DNA from: Bugula neritina
Lineage: Eukaryota; Bryozoa; Gymnolaemata; Cheilostomatida; Bugulidae
Direction of reading: 5' to 3'
DNA length: 64,000 nucleotides
NCBI GenBank assembly: GCA_964035545.1
Contig: OZ037768.1
Span: 21,202,700-21,266,699 of the forward strand
Shown here: positions 9,069 to 32,274 of the stretch, one piece after another
How the letters are laid out: each line of letters opens with the position of its first letter
How positions within the stretch are numbered: position 1 is the stretch's first letter
The notes under the pieces: generated by a model
What the model was told of the DNA's origin: nothing
Databases searched by the model: none
The model's input: only the letters and a program-made list of their open reading frames with translations
Position numbers and translations under genes: made by a program

Positions 9069-9209
9069 CATCAGCAAGTTGACTAATCTGAAGGTATTAC
9101 ATATGAGTAACGATAACTTTTTTACTGGTCTACCTGACATCGTCAGTTCTCTACTCTCTTTGGAGGAGTTGAAGTTGACAGACTGTGGACTACAAACTCT
9201 CCCCATCAG
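9069..9209 (+). CDS. LRR exon 1 (two leucine-rich repeats)
   Basis: 141 nt between TTGTTACAG and GTAAAAC. It codes ISKLTNLKVLHMSND, then LPDIVSSLLSLEELKL and LQTLP: two repeats of about 23 residues. Both flanking introns fall after the second codon base, so the exon can be added or lost without changing frame. Confidence 0.85.

Positions 9210-32274: not shown

Follow-up and report, generated by a model that had tools for sequence, protein, structure and literature searches.

Known systems and the Bugula neritina locus

In the inflammasome, the apoptosome and the PIDDosome, a nucleotide-switch sensor activates a caspase by proximity, and the separate proteins are joined via CARD, DED, PYD or DD. 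The stretch of DNA analysed here, called the window, covers 64,000 nucleotides (nt) of the bryozoan Bugula neritina (contig C4, positions 21202700-21266699, in an assembly of 215.8 Mb with contigs numbered C1, C2 and so on). It holds a gene in which leucine-rich repeat (LRR) exons, a Roc-COR exon and caspase exons follow one another on the forward strand, and by sequence matching this gene is one of about 108 LRR-Roc-COR-caspase loci in the genome. None of the adaptor domains CARD, DED, PYD and DD was present in the part of the product that was read.

Reviews of the Roco proteins, represented here like most papers cited below by excerpts, describe forms with a kinase, forms with a death domain and bare ones (PMC6320773, PMC6337361), and the word caspase does not occur in the excerpts of the second. 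The MFHAS1/MASL1-type proteins have the same order of LRR, Roc and COR as the window product, but MASL1 ends after COR (PMC6320773), whereas a complete caspase stands behind COR in the window product. In LRRK1, LRRK2 and DAPK1, Roc-COR likewise has a catalytic or death module next to it; however, their effector is a kinase or a death domain and the caspase is recruited, while in the window product the caspase is fused. Pathogenic LRRK2 mutants were reported to act via FADD and caspase-8 (PMC5104429), so a Roco-caspase axis has a precedent with separate proteins. In the LRR-caspase and TNFR-caspase hybrids of amphioxus, the receptor part is joined directly to the caspase as a “shortcut” (PMC2575513); these are receptor-caspase fusions like the window product, although the term Roc does not occur in the excerpts of that paper. 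The brown-algal ROCO genes contain shuffled phase-2 LRR exons of equal length, show diversifying selection and are candidate immune receptors (PMC11378527). Their exons are 72 bp with a single LRR, in contrast to 141 nt here, and one group has the C-terminal peptidase IPR009003, with no occurrence of the word caspase in the excerpts (PMC11378527). TIR-Roc-COR proteins were found in Aplysia, a spiralian whose Roco proteins carry an immune-type domain like the present family, but TIR instead of a caspase (PMC9334734). In two LRR-Roc-COR-CARD proteins of Lingula, a CARD is located behind COR, where the window product has its caspase. The family IPR009003 is presumably a peptidase family other than the caspases.

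No LRR-Roc-COR-caspase protein and no bryozoan caspase family of such a kind was described among the papers listed in the literature searches, subscription papers and preprints aside, and the word caspase is absent from the text of a bryozoan genome paper (PMC13326412). The original prediction had regarded the architecture as undescribed. This held for the surveyed literature, but such proteins are already in the protein databases, unremarked, as “MFHAS1 homolog”. Both halves belong to known families; for the fusion, the copy number and the exchangeable effector we found no description in that literature.

Gene structure and domain identity

Thirteen exons between 9069 and 32274 on the forward strand were spliced in silico into a single open chain of 1289 amino acids, with its sole stop at 32274. 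GT-AG sites and the reading frame were kept at 12/12 junctions, so the prediction from the DNA that LRR, Roc-COR (with an intact P-loop), p20 and p10 exons lie on one strand and are joined in frame by twelve canonical junctions was confirmed. The domain order in the product was LRR, Roc, COR, linker and caspase. The exons are as follows.

9069..9209, forward strand: LRR exon 1 of those found, 141 nt, 47 codons, phase-2 symmetric (splice model and LRR matches)
9970..10110, forward strand: LRR exon 2, 141 nt (splice model)
10619..10759, forward strand: LRR exon 3, 141 nt (splice model)
11537..11677, forward strand: LRR exon 4, 141 nt (splice model)
12398..12538, forward strand: LRR exon 5, 141 nt (splice model)
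26107..28178, forward strand: exon with the last LRRs, the Roc GTPase and COR, 2072 nt, with the 3' phase-1 donor GTAAGT (Pfam, profile match)
28832..28915, forward strand: linker exon B, phase-1 acceptor (paralogue DNA alignment)
29236..29426, forward strand: linker exon C, acidic (paralogue DNA alignment)
29854..30024, forward strand: first exon of caspase p20, RKGS region (Pfam, CED-3 alignment)
30388..30610, forward strand: second exon of caspase p20, catalytic His (MSHG) and Cys (EVCSG) (CED-3 alignment)
30949..31125, forward strand: exon of the p20-p10 linker and the start of p10 (splice model, paralogue alignment)
31459..31568, forward strand: caspase p10 exon (RHEVYGSLMIRAL) (splice model, paralogue and CED-3 alignment)
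32137..32274, forward strand: last p10 exon with the stop codon, ending in LYLFPGF (splice model, paralogue alignment)

Each of LRR exons 1-5 encodes 47 LRR residues, and all of them are phase-2 symmetric. In the window, the gene's first exon could not be located, and upstream of 26107 only these five LRR exons were seen. When positions 26001-33000 were compared with a paralogue on contig C6, the DNA aligned solely in eight blocks, all of them on exons, including both linker exons, and in the same order; the exon pattern is therefore not a product of chance. Retrotransposon sequence (RVT, RNase H and integrase) occupies 2258-7128 on the reverse strand, immediately before the first of these LRR exons; the 5' part of the gene may contain it or be displaced by it.

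Pfam analysis of the window product revealed Peptidase_C14 (E=1.5e-38, 133.2 bits, cut-off 21.4), Roc (E=1.5e-6, 28.9 bits, cut-off 27) and LRR families above their cut-offs. The motifs GNTMAGKT (P-loop), DMGG and THKD, which we take to be the G motifs of a GTPase, were present in the translation, and the P-loop was found in 30/30 of the Roc-COR exons examined. A profile built from the window exon together with nine relatives matched Roco proteins up to the end of COR, placing COR directly behind Roc; its alignment with a profile of Roco proteins from Lingula and amphioxus spanned 592 columns (E=4e-41). In Foldseek, the predicted model of a relative, P0006, matched the RocCOR structures 3dpu and 6hlu, with LRRK1/2 as the top structural matches; the VIA-align matches listed covered the caspase part only. 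Judged by these features, the window gene is predicted to encode a Roco protein, having a Roc with GTPase motifs and a COR right after it.

Both p20 and p10 with a caspase fold were found in the product. The caspase aligned with CED-3 and other solved caspases, the His of MSHG and the Cys of EVCSG matching the CED-3 positions. Arg positions aligned to CED-3 also appeared to be kept, and we assume that they form the substrate pocket. No death-fold family was found by Pfam at E<=1 in the 1289 residues, which leave the first exon of the gene outside, and no NACHT or NB-ARC was present in the same part, where Pfam gave Roc instead. A hidden death fold in the linker was considered and ruled out: Pfam gave none, and the P0006 model showed a helix at 726-749 followed by a low-confidence stretch.

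The family in the genome and its relatives

A search with the Roc part of a family member gave 110 matches from 112 candidates, all of which were scored, and the two types of p20 exon matched 133 and 135 places, which merged into 135. A p20 exon on the same strand was located downstream of Roc within 5 kb at 102/110 places, within 8 kb at 105/110 and within 12 kb at 107/110, with a median spacing of 2685 bases. A p20 exon on the opposite strand was found downstream at 0/110 places, and p20 lay upstream within 12 kb in two cases. With strands assigned at random, the number of 8-kb pairs averaged 52.5 and never exceeded 69 in 1000 trials, compared with the 105 observed. The 107 paired Roc matches use 106 p20 exons: C6:3525006 and C6:3526242 share one exon of the p20b type and look like pieces of one gene. 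Among the three places unpaired at 12 kb, two had a p20b on the same strand at a distance of about 12.6 and 16.4 kb downstream, and the third, C1:2754035 (30% identity), was without a downstream p20. Because of the shared exon and the unpaired cases, the number of loci is given as about 108. Many of the loci are clustered. The open frame of the Roc exon was shorter than 600 amino acids at 4/110 places and one stop lay within the match at two others, leaving 104/110 with neither defect (counted by eye, Roc exon only). An open frame of 2363 amino acids at locus L049 was rejected as an artefact of a stretch of N inside it. Clusters of p20 exons with no detected Roc partner were seen on C9 at about 9.32-9.41 Mb and on C2 at about 30.51-30.55 Mb.

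A protein search with the COR end and the caspase of P0006, in which scoring was confined to the 7985 candidates with the most words in common, gave 19 predicted proteins, every one of them from the cheilostome bryozoan Watersipora subatra. Seventeen of these contained C14 and 12 of the 17 also contained LRRs, so the same architecture, which the original prediction had proposed to look for in related genomes, was found there. They were named “MFHAS1 homolog”, “probable serine/threonine-protein kinase pats1” (one protein, without C14) or “uncharacterized”. Between the end of Roc and the end of the caspase, P0001 could be aligned to the window product at 30% across 891 columns, and P0006, with LRRs and C14 in one chain, was 31% identical across 91% of the window Roc-COR region. 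Among the matches listed, the closest named proteins were those of Watersipora subatra, and P0003 and P0004 from JGI contigs were closer still (49%). Regular-expression searches of the 17 C14 proteins found QACSG in 12/17, QACGG in 1/17 and both His and Cys in 13/17, and their precomputed Pfam lists contained no death-fold domain. In Lingula, CARD was listed in 5/9 of the relatives among the matches listed, and the two scanned, P0011 and P0013, were LRR-Roc-COR proteins with a CARD C-terminal to COR. These Lingula proteins are the apparent adaptor-using counterpart of the caspase-bearing receptors.

One gene or two

Splice sites were read in 20/30 Roc-COR loci, comprising the window, three near paralogues and 16/26 other loci. 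A phase-1 donor-like site (GTATGT, GTAAGT, GTGAGT or, at two loci, GTACGT) was located at the same place of the COR exon in 20/20 loci, at most about 130 bases before an in-frame stop. The p20 exon began at an acceptor in 20/20 loci and the following exon in 19/19, and linker exon B had a phase-1 acceptor in 9/9. The alternative would be that neighbouring Roco and caspase genes were duplicated together as blocks. It could account for the 29/135 p20 exons without a Roc within 12 kb and for the differing histories of the two halves, and the interval from COR to p20 contains five AATAAA motifs. These motifs count against a single product in that a caspase-less isoform is possible, although AATAAA counts, like a scan for bacterial-type promoters and terminators, are little informative in AT-rich animal DNA. 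However, because all 20 loci have a phase-1 donor at the end of the COR exon and an acceptor at the start of p20, two adjacent genes are very unlikely; the frame also carries on through linker exons B and C, and single-chain proteins are predicted in Watersipora. LRR, Roc-COR and caspase are thus almost certainly encoded by one gene, as far as genomic DNA can tell. The claim of one gene and one chain is strongly supported because of the 107/110 co-oriented pairs, the conserved splice sites and phases and the Watersipora single-chain predictions.

Possible exchange of the caspase behind similar Roc-COR parts

Twenty-eight loci on C1, C3 and C5 had a Roc at least 84% identical to that of locus L046. 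Of their caspases, 14 belonged to class I and 13 to class II, the two classes being about 47% identical, and one belonged to neither. The DNA of L046 and L043 was 93% identical over 1278-3500, with a fall to 87% and then 74% over the final two steps of 100 bases; the similarity ended seven bases past the COR exon, and the sequences were unalignable beyond. The pairs L046/L058 and L063/L051 broke at the same place. In the control pair L046 and L044, both of class I, similarity was also lost after the COR exon but returned, at 80% in linker B and at 94% from linker C onwards. This same-class loss tells against a simple swap, because it shows that the intron behind COR diverges even where the caspase class is shared. 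The pattern would be explained if the 3' module had been exchanged or the 5' part converted, with the order, strand and phase of the join kept. On balance, we lean towards the view that bryozoans have a large single-chain LRR-Roc-COR-caspase family in which the caspase is exchangeable, with the break at the 3' splice site of the COR exon, and that the Lingula CARD proteins are its adaptor-using relative. If so, one recognition system could be wired to different proteolytic outputs, and the differing caspases would show how receptor families evolve the choice of effector.

Selection and the proposed function

The ratio of nonsynonymous to synonymous substitution rates (dN/dS) was estimated pairwise between the window exons and three paralogues. 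The values were 0 to 0.48 for linker C and the caspase exons (one undefined, without changes), 0.87, 0.49 and 0.18 for linker B, and 0.34, 0.30 and 0.25 for the Roc-COR exon overall. In the first 100 codons of the Roc-COR exon, which are mainly LRR, they were 1.59, 0.96 and 0.81. Among the five LRR exons of the window, the pooled pN/pS was 1.08 and most leucines were fixed; the columns with at least three residues included 35, 37, 38 and 40, which are x positions of LxLxxCx. Since the counts are small, these figures are suggestive and not proof. They point to fast evolution of the LRR-rich first 100 codons and constraint on the remainder of the compared exons. The catalytic residues were kept across the compared paralogues. 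Linker exon B was 75% and 73% identical in protein to the near paralogues p1 and p2, with 91-100% for the caspase exons, as if it tracked COR rather than the caspase.

Decaying or inactive copies spread by duplication are an extremely improbable explanation for most of the family: the short open frames and internal stops described above affect a few Roc exons, but 104/110 are free of both defects, the caspase exons are under purifying selection and their catalytic residues are kept. The window gene, as one of about 108, probably encodes a single-chain immune receptor consisting of an LRR sensor, a Roc-COR switch and a caspase. A single-protein family of about 100 copies suggests an immune sensor of the animal's own making that would work without adaptor proteins, and its members are likely to be active, immune-type receptors. 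The protein would be cytosolic, and its LRRs would bind a pathogen, danger or non-self cue. Binding would alter the nucleotide or dimer state of Roc-COR, a form of switching that is debated for Roco proteins (PMC6320773). COR-driven dimerisation would then bring two C-terminal caspase domains together, and induced proximity would activate them. The p20-p10 linker would be cleaved, and the activated protease would cut death or inflammatory substrates. One protein could in this way do the work of an inflammasome, apoptosome or PIDDosome with its sensor, adaptor and CARD/DED caspase. Such a replacement of the adaptor assembly is plausible because some Lingula relatives bear a CARD at the same place.

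Several results weigh against this reading. The domain search proposed for the joined product recovered Roc and Peptidase_C14, as reported above, but COR-A (18.1 bits) and COR-B (14.3 bits) remained below their Pfam cut-offs of 35.3 and 27. The structural evidence came from P0006, which is about 31% identical to the window; against whole Roco chains its model gave a root mean square deviation of 6-15 Å and a TM by query of 0.29-0.40, so the domain arrangement was not matched. The model of the window's own exon was poor (predicted local distance difference test, pLDDT, 44) and was not used. The pentapeptide of the window caspase is EVCSG and not QACxG, which is typical of caspases but not defining, as variants exist. 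A dN/dS above 1 was obtained in just one pairwise comparison, in the Roc-COR exon, and all values are pairwise. The single-chain proteins of Watersipora are computational models from NCBI; the Ensembl annotation of that genome was made mainly from transcript alignments (PMC12902671).

The same chain could instead serve outside immunity, as a protease for developmental or homeostatic death or for remodelling, for example in polypide regression, with the GTPase as a timer. Caspases do also work outside immunity, but the approximately 108 copies, many of them clustered, the fast-changing LRRs next to a constrained caspase and the differing caspases behind similar Roc-COR parts resemble receptor families under conflict, which makes such a role unlikely. 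An allorecognition family of a colonial animal, in which the LRRs read polymorphic self/non-self cues and the caspase kills at the contact zone, is a possibility of small weight. It would fit the clustered and diverse copies and the divergence of the LRRs, and bryozoans are named among the colonial animals with allo-incompatibility (PMC8195603).

In a single-chain immune receptor of this type, one polypeptide would link sensing to a GTPase switch and a caspase. There would be about 100 copies, in a phylum on whose innate immunity little has been described, to judge by the literature surveyed. How Roc-COR drives its effector is an open question for LRRK2 (PMC6320773), and the family could offer a minimal system, read out through its protease, for how the nucleotide and dimer states of Roc-COR drive a C-terminal effector. 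In addition, the CARD form in Lingula hints that MFHAS1-type Roco proteins and caspases are directly linked in function.

Other elements in the window

One further element lies inside the gene and is not part of the product.

13304..20793, forward strand: long terminal repeat (LTR) retrotransposon with direct repeats at 13304-13529 and 20568-20793, lying in the intron that separates LRR exon 5 from the Roc-COR exon

The direct repeats are 226 nt long and 96% alike, and this low divergence suggests a fairly recent insertion. Pfam gave an RVT_1 match and weak aspartyl protease matches for the element, which we take to be of the Gypsy type. Two related-looking Cys/His-rich open frames neighbour retrotransposon sequence on the forward strand at 19095-20084 and 22095-22622, with no Pfam match at E<=0.01. 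Open frames at 62059-63101 on the reverse strand presumably encode a protein resembling mitochondrial ribosomal protein L16. The window also contains a tandem repeat of 25 nt at 38172-38782 (24 copies, 96% alike) and a (TG)n tract at 59996-60486 (245 copies, 100% matches).
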